A stretch of DNA of 60,359 nt from contig PLLE01000012.1 of the NCBI GenBank assembly GCA_003141245.1, forward strand, positions 1,259-61,617. The letters are read 5' to 3'. The notes under the pieces were generated by a model, which worked only from the letters and a program-made list of their open reading frames with translations, was not told the DNA's origin and searched no databases. Shown one piece after another: positions 49,847-60,131 of the stretch. The stretch's first letter is position 1, and every line of letters begins with the position of its first letter. Made by a program: the position numbers and the translations under genes. This stretch comes from Chloroflexota bacterium (GTDB taxonomy: Bacteria > Chloroflexota > Limnocylindria > Limnocylindrales > CSP1-4).

Positions 49847-49969
49847 TGCCGGCGGAAAGCGAGGGAACGGGCATCGAACCCGTCCCCGCCACCGCCACCG
49901 CCCGAGAGCAATGCTCGCGCCCGACGCCGCGGAAGCCTCGCCGCGAACGACAGGCACGGCTGGAGAGTG

Positions 49970-50326
49970 ATGACCGGCATCTGGTACGTGCTTGGCTTGG
50001 CCGCCGCGGGAGTCGGCTTCGTATTCCTCGTAATCGGCCTGGCCTGGCTCATCTCGCACCGCAACCACGGCGACCGCCACAAGGGCATGCCGTATGAAAG
50101 CGGCATCGACACCTTCGGCGACACCTGGGGCCGGTTCGGTGTCTCCTTCTACGTCTACGCCCTTCTCTTCGTTGCCTTCGACGTGGAGGTGGTCTTTCTC
50201 TTCCTGTGGGCGATCGTGTTCCGAAGCCTGCTGCTGGGCGGCCTCGTGAGCATGGGCACCTTCGTGCTCGTGCTCCTGCTCGGCCTGGCCTACGCCTGGC
50301 GGAAGGGAGTCCTGACGTGGCGGTAG
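49970..50326 (+). CDS. nuoA: NADH-quinone oxidoreductase subunit A
   Basis: A 118-residue membrane subunit of complex I with three helices (~5-28, ~60-80, ~88-108). The conserved loop is MPYESGIDTFGDTW, followed by FYVYALLFVAFDVEVVFLFLWA with the Asp/Glu pair in the second helix. ATG 49970 has GGAG 4 nt upstream; GTG 49967 would lie too close. First gene of the operon; overlaps nuoB by 10 nt. Confidence 0.93.
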   Translation: MTGIWYVLGLAAAGVGFVFLVIGLAWLISHRNHGDRHKGMPYESGIDTFGDTWGRFGVSFYVYALLFVAFDVEVVFLFLWAIVFRSLLLGGLVSMGTFVLVLLLGLAYAWRKGVLTWR

Positions 50327-51051
50327 GCGATCGTGACCCGAGGGGCGGCAAGGCGGCGCGGGCTGCCGGAGAAGCGGCCGGGAGCCGGCTCGCACCCCTC
50401 GCTCCGGGCGATCTGACCGCGCCGATAGTCGTCCCGAACACGCTCTGGCAGGCGACCAACCCGCTCGCATACGACGGCGGACGTCCGACCGAGATCACCC
50501 ACCTGCGCGAGTTCGGCCAGACGGAAGCCGGGCGTCGCGACGACCTTCGTTGGGGAGCGCTCCAGATCGTACCCACCAAGGCCGACTACATACTCGATCT
50601 CATCCGGGCGAACAGCCTCTGGCCGCTCCTTTCGGGCCTGGCCTGCTGCGCCTTCGAGATGATGTCGGGCGCCACCAGCAAATTCGACATGGACCGCTGG
50701 GGCATGTTCCCGTTCAGGGCCTCGCCCCGCCAGTCGGACGTGCTAATCGTCGCCGGGACGCTCACGACCAAGATGTCCGGGCCGCTTCTCCGGCTGTGGG
50801 AGCAGATGCCCGAACCCAAATGGTGCGTCGCCCTGGGTGACTGCACCGTTTCGGGCGGCCGCTACAAGCGCAGCTACTCCACGGTCCAGGGGATCGACCG
50901 GATCATGCCCGTAGACGTGTACATTCCCGGCTGCCCGCCCCGGCCCGAAGGGCTGATCTACGGCATGCTTCAGCTCGGTCAGCTCGTCAAGGACCGCCGC
51001 GGCCACTGGGACGAGCGCGAGATCGGCCCCACGGTACCGGACAAGATCTGA
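50317..51051 (+). CDS. nuoB: NADH-quinone oxidoreductase subunit B
   Basis: A 244-residue peripheral-arm subunit carrying terminal cluster N2. Ligands are the tandem Cys 110-111 (LACCAFEMM), Cys 176 (GDCTVSGG) and Cys 206 (PGCPPRPE), all present. The first ~75 residues are an extension beyond the usual ~160-180-residue protein. GTG 50317 has GGGAG 7 nt upstream and overlaps the end of nuoA. Intact N2 means the Q module should work. Confidence 0.93.
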   Translation: MAVGDRDPRGGKAARAAGEAAGSRLAPLAPGDLTAPIVVPNTLWQATNPLAYDGGRPTEITHLREFGQTEAGRRDDLRWGALQIVPTKADYILDLIRANSLWPLLSGLACCAFEMMSGATSKFDMDRWGMFPFRASPRQSDVLIVAGTLTTKMSGPLLRLWEQMPEPKWCVALGDCTVSGGRYKRSYSTVQGIDRIMPVDVYIPGCPPRPEGLIYGMLQLGQLVKDRRGHWDEREIGPTVPDKI

Positions 51052-51054
51052 CCG

Positions 51055-51612
51055 ATGGATCGTTCGCTCAAGCGCCGACTCGAAGCGCGCCTCAGCTCGC
51101 AGCTGCGCGGGCCGGTTCGCCAGCGCCACGATCAGACCGAGATTCGGATCGGGCCGGGCGACGTGCCGGACGTGCTCCGCACCCTGCACGACGCCGTCGA
51201 TCTCCGCTTCGAGATCCTGGCCGACCTGGCCGGCGTCGACACGGGCCAGGAAATGCAGGTCGTGTACCACCTCTGGAGCGAAACCGCCTCGGACTGGCTG
51301 CGTGTGATCGTCGAGGGGATCTCGCGCGACGACCCGCGCTGCCCATCCGCAACCTTCCTATGGATCGGGGCGGAATGGCCCGAGCGCGAGGCCTACGACA
51401 TGTTCGGCATCGTCTTCGAGGGCAACCGCGACCTGCGCCGCATCTTCATGCCGCCCGACTACACCAGCTTCCCGCTCCGCAAGGACTTCCTGCTGCCCGA
51501 CGACGCGGCCCGATCCCCGGGAGCCGGGGTTCGGCACGTCGAGCGACCCCACGCCCCGGCCGTCGTGGCCGGAGATCCCGCGGCCGGCATCCGCCGGGCG
51601 CCGGCGAGCTGA
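51055..51612 (+). CDS. nuoC: NADH-quinone oxidoreductase subunit C
   Basis: A 185-residue 30-kDa-type subunit. The signature is ATFLWIGAEWPEREAYDMFG, then LRRIFMPPDYTSFPLRKDF. The C-terminal ~40 residues (GVRHVERPHAPAVVAG...) are a low-complexity extension. It is a separate gene from nuoD, 3 bp after nuoB. Confidence 0.92.
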   Translation: MDRSLKRRLEARLSSQLRGPVRQRHDQTEIRIGPGDVPDVLRTLHDAVDLRFEILADLAGVDTGQEMQVVYHLWSETASDWLRVIVEGISRDDPRCPSATFLWIGAEWPEREAYDMFGIVFEGNRDLRRIFMPPDYTSFPLRKDFLLPDDAARSPGAGVRHVERPHAPAVVAGDPAAGIRRAPAS

Positions 51613-51620
51613 GGACGGAG

Positions 51621-52979
51621 ATGCCGACCCGCCAGCGTGCCACGCAACCCGACGGTGCCACGCAACCCGACGGTGCCACGCAACCCGCCCACGCCGCCCG
51701 GACCTCGCAGGCTGCCAGAGCCTCGCAAGCCGCCACGGCCAAGGCGCAGCGGCAGAGGCCGCCCGAGCAGTACCGGTCCGACGACGACCCTCGGATCATG
51801 CTCGATCGCGAGGTCGGCGCCGACCTGTTCGAGCCGATCCCTCCGTATCCGGTTCGGACCGAGCGCGAAGCCGAGTTTTACACCCGCGGCGACGGCGAGA
51901 TGTTCCTCAACGTCGGCCCGCACCACCCGGCCACGCACGGCGTCCTGCGCCTCGTCCTCAAGCTCTCCGGCGAGCAGGTCGTGGACGTCGACCCGGTCCT
52001 GGGCTACCTCCACCGCGGCGTCGAGAAGATCTGCGAGAACTCGGACTACTACCACGTCATCGACCAGGTGGATCCGCTCGAGTACGTCAGCTCGCTCTTC
52101 CAGGAGTGGGCGGCCGTGCTCGCGTTCGAGCAGCTCATGGACGTGGAGGTCCCGCCCCGCGCCGAGTACATCCGCGTTCTCACCTCGGAGCTTCTGCGCG
52201 TCTCCAGCCACACCCTCTTCATGGGCTTCCTGGCCCTGGACCTGGGCGGCCTGGCACCCATCCTGTACAGCTTCATCGAGCGCGACGAGATCGTGGAGAT
52301 GCTCGCCGCCCTCACCGGCGCGCGGATGCTCTTCAACTACTTCCGCATCGGCGGCGTCAACGGCGACCTGAACCACGAGTTCCTGAGCCGCCTGGGCGAC
52401 TGGATGAGCCGCGCGGCCAAGCAGACCGAGGCCAACACCGGGCTGCTCAACGAGAACGAGATCTTCGTCCGACGAGCCCGCGGCGTCGGCATCCTGGATC
52501 GGGAGATGGCGCTCCGGTTCGGAGTCACCGGCGGCAACCTGCGCGCCTCGGGCGTGCCCTTCGACGTCCGCCGAGCCCATCCGTACAGCGTCTACCCGCA
52601 GCTCGACTTCAACGTCCCGACTCGTCTGGAAGGGGACTCGCTGGCTCGCTACCTGATCCGCATGGACGAGGTCCGCGAGTCGATCAGGATCATCGACCAG
52701 TGCCTCCACAACATGCCCGACGGGCCGGTCATGGCCAAGCTGCCGCGACTGCTGCGGCCGCGTCCGGGCCGAGCCTGGGGCGCGGTCGAGGGCCCGCGCG
52801 GGATGCTCGGCGTCTACGCCATCAGCGACGGCAGCGACCAGCCGTTCCGCTTCCGCATCCACGACCCGAGCTTCCTGAACCTCGCCGTCGTCCCGTACCT
52901 GCTGCCCGGCAACCTGCTCGCCGACACCATGGCGATCGTCTCATCCCTCGACCCGGTCCTGGGCGGGATCGATAAGTGA
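51621..52979 (+). CDS. nuoD: NADH-quinone oxidoreductase subunit D
   Basis: A 452-residue 49-kDa-type subunit forming the quinone site with NuoB. It has NVGPHHPATHGVLRLVLKLS (the quinone-binding His in GPHHPATHG), the LHRGVEK segment (Arg 132) and a C-terminal SLDPVLGGIDK. The first ~45 residues are a Gln/Ala/Thr-rich extension with an ATQPDG repeat. Arg 132 corresponds to the Arg methylated by NDUFAF7 in mitochondria, and a MidA-like gene lies upstream. Confidence 0.95.
   Translation: MPTRQRATQPDGATQPDGATQPAHAARTSQAARASQAATAKAQRQRPPEQYRSDDDPRIMLDREVGADLFEPIPPYPVRTEREAEFYTRGDGEMFLNVGPHHPATHGVLRLVLKLSGEQVVDVDPVLGYLHRGVEKICENSDYYHVIDQVDPLEYVSSLFQEWAAVLAFEQLMDVEVPPRAEYIRVLTSELLRVSSHTLFMGFLALDLGGLAPILYSFIERDEIVEMLAALTGARMLFNYFRIGGVNGDLNHEFLSRLGDWMSRAAKQTEANTGLLNENEIFVRRARGVGILDREMALRFGVTGGNLRASGVPFDVRRAHPYSVYPQLDFNVPTRLEGDSLARYLIRMDEVRESIRIIDQCLHNMPDGPVMAKLPRLLRPRPGRAWGAVEGPRGMLGVYAISDGSDQPFRFRIHDPSFLNLAVVPYLLPGNLLADTMAIVSSLDPVLGGIDK
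51639..51692 (+). repeat. 18-bp tandem repeat encoding ATQPDG
   Basis: Two perfect 18-bp units (51639-51656, 51657-51674) and a third diverging in its last part (51675-51692) encode the N-terminal extension of NuoD. Confidence 0.88.
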
Positions 52980-52989
52980 GGGCCATCCG

Positions 52990-54336
52990 ATGACCTTCGC
53001 GACCCGCACCTGGGACCGTATGTCCCTGACCTCGCGGCTCGTCGCCATTCTGGTGCCGCTGGCCTTGATCCTGGCGGTGGGTAGCGTCGTCGGGATCCTC
53101 GTGATCCTGCCGGCGACGATGGACTTCCTGCGGGCGAACCTGCCGCTGGTGCGTTTCGCCGTCGCGGTCGTGGGGATCCTGGTCCTGACGATCCCGACGG
53201 CCTTCGTCCTGATCTATCTGGAACTCAAGATCATCGCCCGCATGAACCTGCGGGTCGGCCCCAATCGGATCGGGCCGTGGGGCGCGGCGATGAGCCTGAT
53301 CCACGGCTTCAAGGTCCTCTCCAAGGAGGACTTCACCCCGACCGGCGCCGATCTGCCGGTCTTCACCCTGGCCCCGGTCGTGACCTTCCTGGCGAGCGTC
53401 ATGACCCTGCTGGTCATTCCGTTCGCGCCCGGGCTCTTCGGCCAGGACTTGAACATCGGCCTGCTCTACTTCTTCGCCATGGGCGGCCTCTCGGTCCTGG
53501 GCCTGCTGATGGCCGGCTGGGCGAGCTTCAACAAGTACTCGCTCCTGGGCGGGCTCCGCGCGGCGGCGCAGATCGTCAGCTACGAGATCCCGCTGACCCT
53601 CTCCGTCGTGGGCGTGGTCATCCTGGCCGGCACGATGAGCATGAACCGCCTGGTCCTGGCCCAGTCCGGCTCGGCCCTCGACTGGTTCGCGTTCAAGCAG
53701 CCCCTGGCGGTGCTCATCTTCTTCATCGCCGCCACGGCCGAGGCGAACCGCACCCCGTTCGACATGACGGAGGCCGACTCGGAGATCGTGGCGGGCTTCG
53801 CCACCGAGTACTCGGGGATGCGCTTCGGATTCTTCTTCTTCGCCGAGTACGTGAACGTCTTCATCGTCTCGGCGCTGCTGGCGACGCTCTTCTTCGGCGG
53901 CTGGACGGCCCCCTTCAACTGGCCCTGGCCGTACAACCTCAACTGGCTGGACGCGTCGGGGATCGGCGTGCTCTGGATCCCCATCGCCATCATCGCCACG
54001 GTCGTCGTGGCCGACGTCGTCGCGGTCGCCGTCCGCCTGGTCGGCGGCAGGAGCTGGTCCGCCCCGAGCGCCTTCGGTCTGGGCTTCCTCGCCGCCGGAG
54101 TCGGCATCGCGGCCGTGGTCGGCCTGGCCTGCTTCATCGCCTTCGACTGGGTCCAGGGCATCTTCTGGTTCATGACCAAGACCTACGTCTTCGTCTTCAC
54201 CTTCGTCTGGATGCGCGGAACGCTGCCGCGCGTCCGGGTCGACCAGCTGATGGGCTTCGCCTGGAAATGGCTGCTGCCCGCTTCGCTTCTCAACCTGTTC
54301 GTGACGGCTACCGCCGTCGTCCTTCTCAACCAGTGA
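52990..54336 (+). CDS. nuoH: NADH-quinone oxidoreductase subunit H
   Basis: A 448-residue membrane subunit that couples the quinone site to proton pumping. It has LIYLELKIIARMNLRVGPNR (helix 1 end and loop), ANRTPFDMTEADSEIVAGF (acidic loop) and MRGTLPRVRVDQLM near the C-terminus. About 9-10 helices. The N-terminal ~60 residues hold an extra helix. Intact, so quinone reduction and coupling are expected. Confidence 0.95.
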   Translation: MTFATRTWDRMSLTSRLVAILVPLALILAVGSVVGILVILPATMDFLRANLPLVRFAVAVVGILVLTIPTAFVLIYLELKIIARMNLRVGPNRIGPWGAAMSLIHGFKVLSKEDFTPTGADLPVFTLAPVVTFLASVMTLLVIPFAPGLFGQDLNIGLLYFFAMGGLSVLGLLMAGWASFNKYSLLGGLRAAAQIVSYEIPLTLSVVGVVILAGTMSMNRLVLAQSGSALDWFAFKQPLAVLIFFIAATAEANRTPFDMTEADSEIVAGFATEYSGMRFGFFFFAEYVNVFIVSALLATLFFGGWTAPFNWPWPYNLNWLDASGIGVLWIPIAIIATVVVADVVAVAVRLVGGRSWSAPSAFGLGFLAAGVGIAAVVGLACFIAFDWVQGIFWFMTKTYVFVFTFVWMRGTLPRVRVDQLMGFAWKWLLPASLLNLFVTATAVVLLNQ

Positions 54337-54343
54337 GAGCGCG

Positions 54344-55159
54344 ATGAGCTTCATTCCGGGCCTGGGCATCGCAAAGGGGATGGCGCTGACGCTGCGCCGT
54401 TTCTTCCAGCCGAAGGCCACCATCCAGTACCCCGAAACGACCCCGGACATCGCGGTTCGCTTCCGCGGCCGGCTCCAGCTCCTTTACGACGAGTTCGGCA
54501 ACCTCAAGTGCGAGACCTGCTTCCAGTGCGCGCAGGCCTGCCCGGTCGAGTGCATCGACATGGGCGGGCACGACACGAAGAACCGCTTCTACACCCACTG
54601 GGGCCCGGCCGAGACGTATGGCGAGCGACGCGAAGAGTCCGCCCTGCGGCGCTCGGGCCGGCCGGTGCCCGATCAGGCCTTCGTCCACTTCGAGCCGATC
54701 GACCTGGTCGCGGTCGAGCAGATCCTGGAGCGGCGCGACTACGACCCGGGCGAGATGCTGCCGATCCTCGAGGAGGTCCAGGCCGCGTACGGCTACCTCC
54801 CGGTCGCCGCGATCAAGCACATCAGCCATGTGACCGGCGCCTCGTACGCCCTGGTCTACGGCACGGCGACCTGCTACGGCCACCTGAGCTTCGAGCGCCG
54901 GGCCCGAACGATCGGCGTCTGCCGCTGCACCAGCTGTCTGCTGGCCGGGTCCGGCCGGATCGCGACCGCCATCGGCGAGGGCCTGGGGACGAAGCTCGAC
55001 GGCGCGCCCGTCGGCGGCGTCGCCCTCCAGCAGCTCCCCGCCCACCTCCCCGGCGCGGCGTCGCCGCTCGTGACGCTGGACGGCAAGCCGCAGACCGACG
55101 TGACCGAGAGATCCGCCGCCGTATGGAGCCGCTCCCTGGCACGGAAGACCGTGGCATGA
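54344..55159 (+). CDS. Fused NuoI-like and NuoE-like subunit with missing cluster motifs
   Basis: A 271-residue fusion. Residues 1-110 are NuoI-like (ALTLRRFFQPKATIQYPE), with one 4Fe-4S motif C56-C59-C62-C66 (CETCFQCAQACP). The second motif expected after it is absent; sequence jumps to the post-motif tail (ERREESALRRSGRPVP). Residues ~118-250 are NuoE-like (thioredoxin fold): EILPILEEVQ-type helix, VYGTATCYGH and VCRCTSCLLAGS (C193, C198; C195 extra), but the second C-x3-C pair is replaced by LPAHLPGAAS. So at most part of the usual FeS set can form. It overlaps nuoF by 4 nt. Confidence 0.82.
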   Translation: MSFIPGLGIAKGMALTLRRFFQPKATIQYPETTPDIAVRFRGRLQLLYDEFGNLKCETCFQCAQACPVECIDMGGHDTKNRFYTHWGPAETYGERREESALRRSGRPVPDQAFVHFEPIDLVAVEQILERRDYDPGEMLPILEEVQAAYGYLPVAAIKHISHVTGASYALVYGTATCYGHLSFERRARTIGVCRCTSCLLAGSGRIATAIGEGLGTKLDGAPVGGVALQQLPAHLPGAASPLVTLDGKPQTDVTERSAAVWSRSLARKTVA

Positions 55160-56529
55160 CCAACGCGAACCTCCTCCCAACGCCCGAGAAGTGGCCGCAC
55201 CTGCTGCTGCCCGCGGCCAGCGCCGAGCTGGCGGCCGGGGCGGCGGCTGGGGCTGGGGCGGCGAATCCCGCCGACCTGGACGCCGCCGTCAAGGCGGGCG
55301 CCTTCGCCGGCCTGACCGAGGCCATCCGCGGCATGACCGCCGGCGAGATCGTGGCGGCGCTGGCCAGGTCCGAGCTGCGCGGCCGCGGCGGAGCGGGCTT
55401 CCCCACGAGCGAGAAGTGGCGCGCCTGCGCCCTGGCCCAGGCCGACCGCCACTACGTCGTCGTCCACGCCTACCAGGCCGATCCGGCCGTCTTTACCGAT
55501 CGCGTGCTGCTGGAGCGCAATCCTTTCGCGGTTCTCGAGGGAGCGGCCATCGCCGCCGTCGCTGTCAGCGCGTCTGAGATCGTCGTGGCGATCCGGGCCG
55601 AGGCCACGGCAGCCATCGCCGTGCTGGAGGCCGCGATCGCCGCGGCCGAGCACGCGGGCTACCTCGGCGAAGACGTCCTGGGCAGCGGCCGCGAGATCCA
55701 CGTCGAGGTCAAGCCGCTCCAGGGCGCGTACATGCTCGGCGAGGAAACGGTGCTGCTCAAGGGCATCGAGGGCAAGCGCGGCCAGCCCGAGCAGCAGCCC
55801 CCGTACCCCACGACCCGCGGCCTGTACGGCCGGCCGACGCTCGTCCACAACCCGCAGACCCTGGCCGTCATCCCGGGCATCATCACCGGCGGCCCCGGCA
55901 CGCACTCCGCCGCCGGATCGGCGCACGGCCAGGGCACCGTCCTGGTGCAGATCTCCGGCTCGGTCGCCAATCCGGGCCTGGCCGAGGTGCCGCTGGGCAC
56001 GCCGCTGGGTGAGATCGTGGCCCTGGCCGGCGGCGTTCCCGCGCCGCATACCCTCAAGGCCCTGCTCGTGGGCGGACCCTCGGGCGGAATCCTGCCGCCT
56101 GACGCCGAGAAGATCGCCTACCAATTCGAAGCGCTCGAGGCGGCCGGCGCCCACATGGGCTCCGGGTCGATCGTCGTGATCGACGAGCGCAGCTGCCTCG
56201 TCGATCTCGCCTCCGTGCTGACTCGTTTCTGCGCCGATCAGGCTTGCGGCAAGACGATCCCGTGCCGGATCGGGCTGCGCCGCCTGGCGGAGATCGGGGC
56301 GCGGATCTGCGAGGGCCAGCCCCGAGACGACGAGATCGTCCGCCTGACGGATCTCTCCGCCGACATCGTGGCCAGCCGCCTGTGCGACCACGAAGGCCGC
56401 TCCACCCTGCCTCTCCTGAGCATCGTCCGGTACTTCCGCGACGAGCTCGACGCCCACATTCTCCGCAGCACCTGCCCCGCCGGGATCTGCCATCCGATGG
56501 CAACCTCCCGTCCCGGGGCCGTCTCCTGA
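55156..56529 (+). CDS. nuoF: NuoF-like subunit with degenerate NADH site and N3 cluster
   Basis: A 457-residue 51-kDa-type subunit. The FMN loop LRGRGGAGFPTSEKW (74-88) is kept. The NADE-x-EPG motif is replaced by HAYQADPA (104-111); YICGEETAL is YMLGEET (193-198); NNVET is HNPQT (231-235). The N3 cluster motif CGKCTPC reads CGKTIPC: C364 and C370 remain, the middle Cys is Thr 367, and the distant Cys is C410. The fold (SLBB region ~265-330) is preserved. NADH oxidation here is doubtful; it may be structural or altered in specificity. Overlaps the fused gene before it by 4 nt. Confidence 0.85.
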   Translation: MTNANLLPTPEKWPHLLLPAASAELAAGAAAGAGAANPADLDAAVKAGAFAGLTEAIRGMTAGEIVAALARSELRGRGGAGFPTSEKWRACALAQADRHYVVVHAYQADPAVFTDRVLLERNPFAVLEGAAIAAVAVSASEIVVAIRAEATAAIAVLEAAIAAAEHAGYLGEDVLGSGREIHVEVKPLQGAYMLGEETVLLKGIEGKRGQPEQQPPYPTTRGLYGRPTLVHNPQTLAVIPGIITGGPGTHSAAGSAHGQGTVLVQISGSVANPGLAEVPLGTPLGEIVALAGGVPAPHTLKALLVGGPSGGILPPDAEKIAYQFEALEAAGAHMGSGSIVVIDERSCLVDLASVLTRFCADQACGKTIPCRIGLRRLAEIGARICEGQPRDDEIVRLTDLSADIVASRLCDHEGRSTLPLLSIVRYFRDELDAHILRSTCPAGICHPMATSRPGAVS

Positions 56530-56537
56530 GGCATCCG

Positions 56538-59234
56538 ATGCGAGAAGCGACCCGCCGCCCCAGCCCGAGCGCTCCGCCCGCTCTTCCGAGCCCGTCCGCG
56601 AGCGCGTCGATGACGCCGCCGGCCGTCGTTCCCGGACCCCTGCCGGTCCAGGCACCTGCTCCGTCCGTGACTGGCCTCAAACCCGCCGCCAACGAGAAAC
56701 CGGTCTGGAACCGCAAGGCCGGCCGGGTCGACAGCCGCCCCGACTCGAAGGCGCCGCGCGACACGGTCACGCCGATCGACGACTCGCCCGAAGAGCGGCT
56801 CATCACGACGCAGAGCCCGCAGCGCCCGCTCTCGACGCCGACCATCAAGCTCCAGATCGACGGCCGCGAGGTCATCGGCATTGAGGGCCAGACGATCCTG
56901 GAGGTCTGCCGCGACAACGGCATCGACGTCCCGACGCTCTGCTACGAGCCCAAGCTGCCCGGCTTCGGGGCGTGCCGCATGTGCGTCGTCGAGATCGCGG
57001 GTGAGGACCGCCCGGCGATCTCGTGCGCCCGCGCCGCCGCCACGGGAATGGTCGTCCAGACCCAGACCGAGGAGGTGCGCCGGCTGCGGCGCACGAACCT
57101 CGAGCTGATCTTCAGCGACCACAACGCCTACTGCCTGCCGCCCTGCCAGAACAAGTGCCCGAGCCACATCGACATCCCCGGCTTCCTCAAAGCCAACGCC
57201 GAGGGCAAATTCCGCGAGTCGGCGCGAATCTTCAAGCGTACGATTCCGTTCCCCTCCATCCTGGGGCGTGTCTGCCCGGCGCCGTGCGAGGAGCACTGCC
57301 GCCGCGACGAGGTGGACGAGGCGATCGCCATCCGCGACAGCCACCGCTACGCCGGCGACATCGTCCTGGCGGCCCAGGAAGACGGCATCGAGCCGCCGCT
57401 GCCCTTCGAGGCGCAGCCCGCGACGGGCAAGCGCGTGGCCATCGTCGGCTCCGGCCCCGCCGGCATGGCCGCGGCCTACTACCTGCTCCTGTCCGGCCAC
57501 CACGTGACCGTCTTCGAGCGCGACGCCGCCCCCGGCGGGATGCTCCGCTACGGCATCCCGGAGTACCGCCTGCCCAAGGCCGAGGTGCTCGAGCCCGAAT
57601 ACGAGGCCGTCTGGCGGCTGGGCGCGAAGCTGGAGCTCAACCAGGAGCTGGGCCGCGACTTCAGCCTCGACGACCTGCGCGACCGGGGCTTCGACGCCAC
57701 GATCGTCGCGACCGGCTGCTACGAGACGAACAAGATCGGCGTCCCCAACGACACCGCCGAGGGCGTCATCGAAGGCCTGGACTACCTGCGCATCGCCACG
57801 TTGGGCCTGCCCTACCCGGGCCACGCCGGCAGCCGGGTCGTCGTCATCGGCGGCGGCTTCACCGCCATGGACTGCACGCGCACCTCGATCCGCCAGGGGG
57901 CGAGGGAAGTCACCCTCGTCTACCGCCGTGACATGAAGGACATGCCCGCGGCCAGCGAGACTCACGAGGCCATGGAAGAGGGCGCGAAGATGATCTTCCA
58001 GGCAGGCCCGACACGCGTCCTGGTCGACGCCCGCAACCGTGTCGCCGGCGTCGAGTTCATTCGCATGCGCCCCGGCGCTCCGGACGCCTCCGGCCGGCGC
58101 CGCCCCGAGCCGGCGCCCGGAACCGAATTCGTCGTCGAATGCGATCGCGTCCTGCTCGCCATCGGCCAGGGCCCCGACCTGTCGTGGATCGGCCCCGGCA
58201 ACGAGGACGTCGAGGCCGTCAAGTGGAAGCTCAAGGCCGACGCGGTGACCTTCGAGACCGGCCGGCCCGGCGTCTTCGGCGCCGGCGACGTCCGCATCGG
58301 CGCCGCGACCGTGGTCCAGGCGATCGCCGAGGGCCGCCGCTGCGCCTACGCCGCGGACGCCTACCTGCGCGGCATGGACCTCTCCGAGCTGCGATCCCGC
58401 GAGCCGCTGGTCGAATGGGACCCTGGCTTCCTCTCGATCGTCCCCTATACGGACGAGGTCAAGGAGCCTCGCCATCGCCTGCAGGCGATGCCGGCGGAGG
58501 AACGCACCAGGAGCTACGTCGAGTACGAGATCCCCTACACCCAATCCGAGGTGATGGCCGAGTCGAGCCGCTGCCTGCAATGCACCTGCGAGGCGATCGG
58601 CTACTGCGACCTGCGCAACCTGGGGATCGAGTACGGAACCACGCTCAAGACCCTGGAGCCGGGCCATGACGAGGGTGCCGGCTTCCGCAGCGTCACCGAG
58701 AACCGCTTCACCGGCACCAATCACGACTACGTCCGCGACGACAGCCACGCCTTCATCCTGCGCGAGCCGTCGCGCTGCATCGACTGCGGGCGTTGCGCCG
58801 CGGTCTGCGCCGACGTCGTCGGCGCGGCCTGCTACGACTTCATGCGCATCGGCTTCGACACGCTGGTGACGACGCCGCTCGACATGAGCCTCAACGACAC
58901 GCCGTGCGTCTCCTGCGGCCGCTGCGCCGAGACGTGCCCGACGGGCGCGCTCATGCTCAAGCCGCGCGTCCTGGAGAAGTACGACGTCGACGAGAGCCGC
59001 TGCATCCTGTGCGGCATCTGCGTGGACGCGTGCCCGTACGACGCGCTCCGCGGCGGCCCGGACAACGAGCTCGCCCACACCGACCGGTCCGAGCCGATGA
59101 TCGATCTCATCGGCCTGGCGGCGATGGCCGGCGAAACCGAAGTCACCTACATAGCGCGCGAGCGCGACTGGATGGCGCACGCCGTGGCCGACGGTCGACT
59201 CGCGGCCGTCGCCACCCCCGGCGACGGAAAGTGA
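56538..59234 (+). CDS. 2Fe-2S/GltD-type flavoprotein/polyferredoxin in place of NuoG
   Basis: An 898-residue protein. Residues 1-100 are a disordered extension. A 2Fe-2S domain follows (C135, C146, C149, C163: LCYEPKLPGFGACRMC). Then a GltD-type FeS segment (C199, C203, C207, C246, C250, C254: GRVCPAPCEEHC) and two Rossmann folds: FAD loop GSGPAG (304-309) and NAD(P) loop VVIGGGFTAMD (~436). The C-terminus has CLQCTC (~678), CIDCGRCAAVC (~747), CVSCGRCAETCP (~790) and CILCGICVDACP (~822). The molybdopterin-like domain of NuoG is missing. It resembles NuoG/FdhA-like or StnC/NfnB-like oxidoreductases and is likely the NAD(P)H entry point. Confidence 0.85.
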   Translation: MREATRRPSPSAPPALPSPSASASMTPPAVVPGPLPVQAPAPSVTGLKPAANEKPVWNRKAGRVDSRPDSKAPRDTVTPIDDSPEERLITTQSPQRPLSTPTIKLQIDGREVIGIEGQTILEVCRDNGIDVPTLCYEPKLPGFGACRMCVVEIAGEDRPAISCARAAATGMVVQTQTEEVRRLRRTNLELIFSDHNAYCLPPCQNKCPSHIDIPGFLKANAEGKFRESARIFKRTIPFPSILGRVCPAPCEEHCRRDEVDEAIAIRDSHRYAGDIVLAAQEDGIEPPLPFEAQPATGKRVAIVGSGPAGMAAAYYLLLSGHHVTVFERDAAPGGMLRYGIPEYRLPKAEVLEPEYEAVWRLGAKLELNQELGRDFSLDDLRDRGFDATIVATGCYETNKIGVPNDTAEGVIEGLDYLRIATLGLPYPGHAGSRVVVIGGGFTAMDCTRTSIRQGAREVTLVYRRDMKDMPAASETHEAMEEGAKMIFQAGPTRVLVDARNRVAGVEFIRMRPGAPDASGRRRPEPAPGTEFVVECDRVLLAIGQGPDLSWIGPGNEDVEAVKWKLKADAVTFETGRPGVFGAGDVRIGAATVVQAIAEGRRCAYAADAYLRGMDLSELRSREPLVEWDPGFLSIVPYTDEVKEPRHRLQAMPAEERTRSYVEYEIPYTQSEVMAESSRCLQCTCEAIGYCDLRNLGIEYGTTLKTLEPGHDEGAGFRSVTENRFTGTNHDYVRDDSHAFILREPSRCIDCGRCAAVCADVVGAACYDFMRIGFDTLVTTPLDMSLNDTPCVSCGRCAETCPTGALMLKPRVLEKYDVDESRCILCGICVDACPYDALRGGPDNELAHTDRSEPMIDLIGLAAMAGETEVTYIARERDWMAHAVADGRLAAVATPGDGK

Positions 59235-59274: not shown

Positions 59275-59823
59275 ATGCCGATAGGCGACACGGTCCCGCT
59301 TACGGCGATCCGCTGGGACGACATCTTGTTCGTCGTGCTGGCGGCGATGCTCCTGGGTTCGGCGCTGCTGGTCGTGACCATGCGCGACATCATTCGCTGC
59401 GGTCTGGCGATGATCGCCGCGTTCGCGTCCCTGGCCGGCATATACGTCCTGCTCGGCAATCCGCTAATAGCGGCCACCCAGGTCCTGGTCTACATCGGCG
59501 CGATCAGCGTCCTGGTCCTGTTCGCGATCATGCTGACCCAGACCAAGAACGCCCCCGCTCGACTGGTCTTCCAGACTCAGGCCTGGGCGGCGGCCCTGGC
59601 CGCGGTCGTGATCGCGGCGGTCATCGCCATCAGCGTCACAGCCACGACCTGGCCCTCCGCCGGCGCCGTGGCCTGGACCGACACCACCAGGGTCGCCGAG
59701 CTGCTCTTCAGCGACTATCTCCTGCCGTTCGAGGTCGTGAGCGTGCTGCTCACCGCCGCCGTCGTGGGTGGGGTTCTGCTGGCCAGGCGCGATCCCGATG
59801 AGAACGAGGAGGATCGACCGTGA
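59275..59823 (+). CDS. nuoJ: NADH-quinone oxidoreductase subunit J
   Basis: A 182-residue membrane subunit with five helices. [20 protein letters not shown] and [20 protein letters not shown] carry the helix-3 Gly/Tyr features of NuoJ. It begins 40 bp after the NuoG-like gene and overlaps nuoK by 4 nt. Membrane module appears intact. Confidence 0.92.
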
Positions 59824-60131
59824 GCGGTTCGCTCGACTCCTACCTGGTCCTCTCCGGCCTGCTCTTTGCGATCGGCACCTTCGGCTTCCTGGGCCGCCGC
59901 AACGCGATCAGCATGCTCATGTCGATCGAACTGATGCTCAACGCGGTGAACCTGACCGTCGTCGCGTTCGGGGCCTTCGTGAAGCCGCTCCAGACGCACG
60001 CCGCGGTGATCGCCCTGCTCGTGATCGCCGTGGCGGCCGCCGAGGCCACGGTCGGTCTGGCGATCGTCATCGCGATCTATCGGAACCGCAAGACGCCTCT
60101 CGTCGACGAATACGACTCGATGAGCGAATGA
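59820..60131 (+). CDS. nuoK: NADH-quinone oxidoreductase subunit K
   Basis: A 103-residue membrane subunit with three helices. Conserved acidic residues lie in [14 protein letters not shown] (Glu of helix 2) and [14 protein letters not shown] (Glu of helix 3), both needed for proton pumping. GTG start, overlapping nuoJ by 4 nt. Confidence 0.95.

Follow-up and report, generated by a model that had tools for sequence, protein, structure and literature searches.

The canonical 14-subunit Nuo complex is encoded in one operon with NuoA-D, NuoH and NuoJ-N, and NuoI, a core complex I subunit, is one undivided polypeptide in the complex I structures that the searches matched, as well as in the majority of the other Chloroflexota examined. 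In the 11-subunit complex I that lacks NuoEFG, NuoI is, as usually defined, still whole. This form, known for example from Desulfitobacterium, also has a non-standard electron input and is without the NADH-oxidising module (PMC11238625). Stn (StnABC of Sporomusa ovata) and NfnABC are soluble enzymes with a large subunit composed of a 2Fe-2S domain, a GltD module and a chain of [4Fe-4S] clusters, accompanied by NuoF- and NuoE-like partners. In Stn the GltD domain oxidises NADPH, bifurcation requires the 2Fe-2S cluster of StnA, and the C-terminal ferredoxin domain of StnB is the putative ferredoxin site (PMC10482914).

The window studied here, that is, the whole stretch of 60,359 nucleotides that was analysed, holds a nuo operon resembling canonical Nuo in its gene set, N2 ligands, quinone-site motifs and recognisable NuoF. 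Unlike canonical Nuo, the Limnocylindria operon has a split NuoI, a GltD-bearing protein in place of NuoG, and NuoE and NuoF with decayed motifs. That GltD-bearing large subunit shares its architecture with those of Stn and NfnABC, but StnC ends in an FdhF-like domain, no Stn or NfnABC enzyme was seen with a NuoI half or inside a nuo operon, and the parts used in bifurcation (the NuoE 2Fe-2S site and the C-terminal ferredoxin domain of NuoF) are missing from the Limnocylindria complex. Compared with the 11-subunit enzyme, there is a new input module besides the split NuoI. Our interpretation, to which we give a probability of about 0.7, is that the locus encodes a variant complex I in which an NADPH-accepting large subunit of the Nfn/Stn type takes the place of NuoG and NuoI is made in two halves. 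No description of such an enzyme appeared in the literature searched, subscription papers and preprints being outside its coverage, and in papers on the class Limnocylindria a term search found neither complex I nor NADH nor nuo.

Gene content of the operon and its large subunit

The features of the operon, all on the + strand, are as follows.

49967..50326, +, NuoA (Pfam Oxidored_q4, 3.8e-32)
50206..51051 (ORF as listed), +, NuoB, with the four N2 cysteines (Pfam Oxidored_q6; alignment)
51055..51612, +, NuoC (Pfam Complex1_30kDa, 5.5e-36)
51687..52979 (start approximate), +, NuoD (Pfam Complex1_49kDa, 9.2e-83)
52990..54336, +, NuoH (Pfam NADHdh, 1.2e-105)
54344-55159, +, ORF of the NuoI-NuoE fusion
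54344..54658, +, first half of NuoI, fused to NuoE: N-terminal helix, YPE region and CETCFQCAQACP (C56, C59, C62, C66)
54713..55159, +, NuoE-like part with an incomplete [2Fe-2S] ligand set (Pfam 2Fe-2S_thioredx, 1e-16)
55156..56529, +, NuoF, its NADE loop altered to HAYQADPA and its N3 motif reading CGKTIPC (TIGR01959, 3.5e-104)
56538-59234, +, ORF of the large subunit (P), 898 residues
56841..57068, +, 2Fe-2S domain of P, residues 102-177 (Pfam Fer2_4, 3e-18)
57132..57368, +, Fer4_20 domain of P with two [4Fe-4S] sites of GltD/DPD type, residues 199-277 (Pfam, 2.2e-18)
57432..58334, +, FAD- and NAD(P)H-binding GltD module of P, residues 299-599 (Pfam Pyr_redox_2, 2.3e-24)
58572..58607, +, Cys-rich segment CLQCTCEAIGYC of P (C679, C682, C684, C690; invariant in 89/89 loci)
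58776..58940, +, HydA/NuoG-type pair of [4Fe-4S] motifs of P, C747-C757 and C790-C800 (Fer4_Nqo3 and Fer4 matches)
58974..59234, +, second half of NuoI in P: motif CILCGICVDACP (C822, C825, C828, C832) and post-cluster tail NELAHTDRSEPMIDLI (TIGR01971 positions 71-116)
59275..60131, +, NuoJ and NuoK (nuoJ from 59275, nuoK from 59820; Pfam Oxidored_q3, 2.1e-32, and Oxidored_q2, 1.6e-25)

The true start of NuoB is probably downstream of 50206, since the listed ORF overlaps nuoA. The quinone-site motifs of NuoD, HPATHG and the Tyr of LEYVS, were read from the sequence. The window reaches the contig end after nuoK, and in relatives the operon continues with nuoL, nuoM and nuoN, whose identity was confirmed; with these three taken from relatives, the membrane and Q-module genes A, B, C, D, H and J-N are present together. 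Many independent contigs of families f1, f2 and f4 show the same 13 genes arranged A B C D H I'E' F P J K L M N, where I'E' is the NuoI-NuoE fusion, and the block of family f3 reads B D I'E' F P. In f3 (loci L048 and L050) the split block is accompanied by nuoD, with nuoC, nuoH and the membrane genes not nearby, so that the rest of that complex must be encoded elsewhere. The possibility that the NuoD of f3 is instead the large subunit of a [NiFe]-hydrogenase was rejected, as it reads as a true NuoD.

The limits of the large-subunit ORF, already given by an earlier note made from the sequence alone, were confirmed. Its first 90 residues or so are of low complexity and poorly conserved, for which reason translation may in fact begin downstream of 56538. 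The same note had read P as a NuoG-like 2Fe-2S domain followed by the Fer4_20/FAD/NAD(P) module of GltD and dihydropyrimidine dehydrogenase, and the Pfam matches listed above bear this out, Fer2_4 being of NuoG/HydA type. The 2Fe-2S ligands (C135, C146, C149, C163) are invariant in all 85-87 loci with residues at those positions, as are the Fer4_20 cysteines (C199, C203, C207, C246, C250, C254) in 89 of 89. The GltD module, in which YRRDMKDMPA sits after the second Rossmann motif, could be aligned with StnC and NfnA. Further on, Pfam rendered Fer4_Nqo3 at residues 740-805 and pairs of Fer4 at 786-838, and the HydA chain 7p5h_A aligns continuously with the HydA/NuoG-type pair.

The best PDB relatives of the whole protein are the large subunits of NfnABC, from Caldicellulosiruptor and Thermococcus, and of Stn (9bov, 8oh5, 9n5u; E 1e-136 to 1e-163), query residues 103-833 aligning with StnC 4-700. 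The best NCBIfam match was NF009454 (PRK12814-type NADPH-dependent GltD; residues 102-755, 1e-160; 536 bits against a cut-off of 916), a model of presumably SfrB-like proteins which, unlike the large subunit, stops before the NuoI part. The NuoG profile TIGR01973 gave only 95 bits against a cut-off of 470, with its best stretch in the 2Fe-2S region. In the AlphaFold models of the large subunit (44 relatives) the GltD part was folded best, and most of the C-terminal third had a pLDDT of 20-40.

Division of NuoI between two polypeptides

In NuoI structures, the first of the two cysteine motifs provides three ligands of cluster N6a and one of N6b, and the second motif the reverse. The NuoI profile TIGR01971 matched the fusion ORF at positions 1-67 (4.3e-14) and the large subunit at positions 71-116 (2.3e-10 in the genome search, and 3.3e-11 when the tail was scanned alone). 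A profile search of the whole source genome found no intact NuoI above the NuoI cut-off. The sole other near-full match to the profile in that genome, on contig C37, is HdrA and was rejected as a second NuoI. Halves joined in silico, in five families, rendered an uninterrupted NuoI match covering positions 1-116 of 121 (84-95 bits). The eight NuoI-type cysteines, arranged in two CxxCxxCxxxCP motifs, and the tail are present only jointly, across both proteins; the four of the second half are invariant in 88 of 88 loci and the four of the first half in 73-74. The loci counted belong mostly to families f1 and f2 and are therefore related, not independent samples.

The earlier note had pointed out that the end of the large subunit resembles the C-terminal half of NuoI, tail included, and had proposed that it may supply the cluster which the fusion lacks. 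When the tails of nine members from five families were scanned singly, NuoI models matched all nine, the best being TIGR01971 (to 2e-14), and the likeness extends past the cysteine motif. The bacterial NuoI of 8qby, which we take to be that of Paracoccus, aligned with the C-terminal part of the large subunit in a single stretch (query 113-168) of 49 bits, whereas polyferredoxins, whose scores sum many motifs, did not exceed 34 bits per stretch in the printed alignments; a profile search of the tail rendered the same pattern. A GltD-linked ferredoxin motif from contig C1 of the same genome scored 26 bits against the NuoI profile, compared with 41 bits for the large-subunit tail. A better match of the tail to GltD-linked polyferredoxins, which would have refuted the proposal, was thus not found, and the complementary coverage of the profile, the rejoining of the halves, the near-invariance of the cysteines and the lack of an intact NuoI all agree with the second half making good what is missing from the fusion. 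As far as homology at the sequence level can establish it, the division of NuoI between the NuoI-NuoE fusion and the large subunit is near certain.

Structure prediction adds little here, since single-chain AlphaFold models have a pLDDT mostly below 50 at both NuoI halves and are too weak to test the split. In the model of the fusion the NuoE part was folded and the NuoI half was not, and Foldseek identified a NuoE-like fold, with FDH gamma/HydC/NfnC-type chains as the nearest.

The fourth cysteine is kept in both motifs, which fits shared ligation of N6a and N6b. By analogy with the NuoI structures, the fusion misses half of a two-cluster domain, so that both clusters would be shared; ligation of N6a and N6b by two polypeptides each is thus an inference from that analogy.

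The NADH module and the proposed route of electrons

Judged from its motifs, the NADH module of Limnocylindria looks decayed. The second cysteine pair of NuoE is missing in most loci, and in about half of them the thioredoxin-like domain is gone. In the NuoF of nuo operons most loci have N-G-Y-x where NADE is normal, with Tyr in place of Asp in 68 of 75 (column counts), and in 76 of 81 the second N3 cysteine has given way to T, S or A. The other three N3 cysteines are kept in 81/81, all four are found in five loci, and the glycine-rich FMN loop (GRGGAGF) and GEE persist in nearly all; residual NADH chemistry is therefore not excluded. The loss of motifs is not a habit of the lineage, because both are retained in two further NuoF proteins that this genome encodes (NADEGDPG/NGDEGDPG and SCGKC.PCR). 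The NuoF of cassettes outside Limnocylindria (see below) keeps all N3 cysteines with a loop that is already N-A-Y-D-A-D-P, which suggests that the loop changed before N3 was lost.

A CPAGIC motif near the end of NuoF (window 56460-56529) resembles a HydB/StnB-type linker, as though NuoF had once carried a ferredoxin domain at its C-terminus and lost it. In a second, Nfn-like locus (L002, contig C14 of the source genome), an intact NuoF is joined to GltD, and a 2Fe-2S/[4Fe-4S] protein is encoded separately.

The variant complex I that we favour could work as follows. The two NuoI halves would meet in the assembled enzyme as one ferredoxin fold, joint assembly being inferred, with the membrane-facing helix supplied by the N-terminal half in the NuoI-NuoE fusion. 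NADPH would be oxidised at the GltD FAD of the large subunit, and electrons would pass from there through the GltD-type clusters and the HydA/NuoG-type pair to N6a/N6b, and then by way of N2 in NuoB to quinone, a flow that NuoH and NuoLMN would use to pump protons; NuoE and NuoF would persist mostly as structure. The direction of flow is inferred, as are the specificity for NADPH, its oxidation at this FAD and its role as main donor; the NAD(P)H-binding motifs of the GltD module are conserved, and the module is related to those of the NADPH-using StnC and NfnA. Of 51 relatives, 47 have PntB, 1.1-Mb genomes included, and NADH could therefore reach the enzyme as NADPH, which is compatible with the model and no proof of it. 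For the full version, a proton-pumping NADPH:quinone complex I with both [4Fe-4S] clusters cross-ligated, a structural NADH module and a cassette that in other Chloroflexota accompanies an ordinary complex I and possibly swaps into it, we see even odds.

The retention of GRGGAGF, GEE and three N3 cysteines, together with the complete N3 sets of five loci and of the cassettes outside the class, would also suit a split complex with dual entry, in which NADH is oxidised at the FMN of NuoF and NADPH at the GltD FAD. This is possible but rather unlikely, given the replacement of the NADE-loop Asp and of one N3 ligand in the great majority of loci and a NuoE that has lost its second cysteine pair or the whole domain. 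A different objection concerns cross-ligation itself: the tail motif is spaced normally from the motif that precedes it and could pair with it. In that case the last two motifs would form a dicluster ferredoxin, and the NuoI half of the fusion would be a clusterless anchor or bind a cluster on its own. Their spacing is indeed that of a bacterial ferredoxin, and Pfam Fer4_7/Fer4_21 span residues 786-837. We nevertheless doubt this arrangement more than dual entry, since the preceding motif already pairs with C747-C757 in HydA/NuoG fashion, the tail stays NuoI-like beyond its motif, the fusion's NuoI half keeps all four cysteines, and without the tail the genome would have no NuoI.

That the closest solved relatives of the large subunit are bifurcating raises the question of whether an electron-bifurcating or confurcating enzyme of the Stn/Nfn kind has been attached to membrane subunits. 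With no complete site in NuoE and no ferredoxin domain in NuoF, this is very improbable. The source is a draft genome, and an assembly artefact, a frameshift or a pseudogene could also be invoked. Over 70 contigs, drawn from many genomes and families, share the arrangement, and this recurrence refutes the explanation; its conservation in about 88 loci makes the large subunit neither a chance product nor an artefact of assembly.

If the preferred reading of an NADPH-accepting, split-NuoI complex I is true, nature would have a complex I driven by NADPH. The decay of its NADH module would make the role of that module testable, and such an enzyme would explain how the respiratory chain is fed in abundant, genome-reduced freshwater bacteria (Limnocylindrus).

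Distribution of the split set in Chloroflexota

The relatives are placed in Ca. Limnocylindria (Limnocylindrus, Aquidulcis, Limnocylindrales). In this class 99 of 101 genomes have no NuoI above the cut-off, and most of those listed show both pieces. The only class genomes sampled with an intact NuoI are G112 and G118 (f3, g43), and G118, which has the split set too, probably possesses a second complex I. That NuoI is divided throughout a class, one part on a protein for electron input and the other on a NuoE-like one, shows that the hydrophilic arm allows rebuilding around another donor. Annotation pipelines would probably call these genomes nuoG- and nuoI-less.

The survey was confined to the phylum Chloroflexota, with the C-terminal part of the large subunit as the phylum-wide query; NuoI was detected at 1e-20 in 238 of 301 genomes. 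Beyond Limnocylindria, a cassette of four genes, nuoB-I'E'-F-P, occurs in families f13, f21, f35 and f38, and family f33 has a nuo operon containing the split set. Both NuoI halves lie close together in all 12 loci fetched outside the class, and such genomes, where checked, possess in addition a canonical complex I, in which NuoF is normal, NuoI is intact and a gene occupies the NuoG position. The large-subunit tree has one clade of f1, f2 and f4 and another of f33, f3, f5 and the cassettes, with long outgroup branches; the split therefore appears to be older than the class, or to have moved between lineages.

A Phocaeicola-labelled plasmid record that matched the fusion was rejected, as it has an ordinary NuoI (a 154-residue ORF) followed by NuoJ and is not split. 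In loci L149-L160 (for example L150:8851-14121) the cassette stands alone beside a complete canonical complex I, and its extra NuoB keeps the N2 cysteines. Such a cassette may swap into complex I or may be a soluble enzyme. In two genomes of f21 the large subunit is tandemly duplicated (L149:9422-14491 and L159:9806-14847), with the NuoI tail on both copies.
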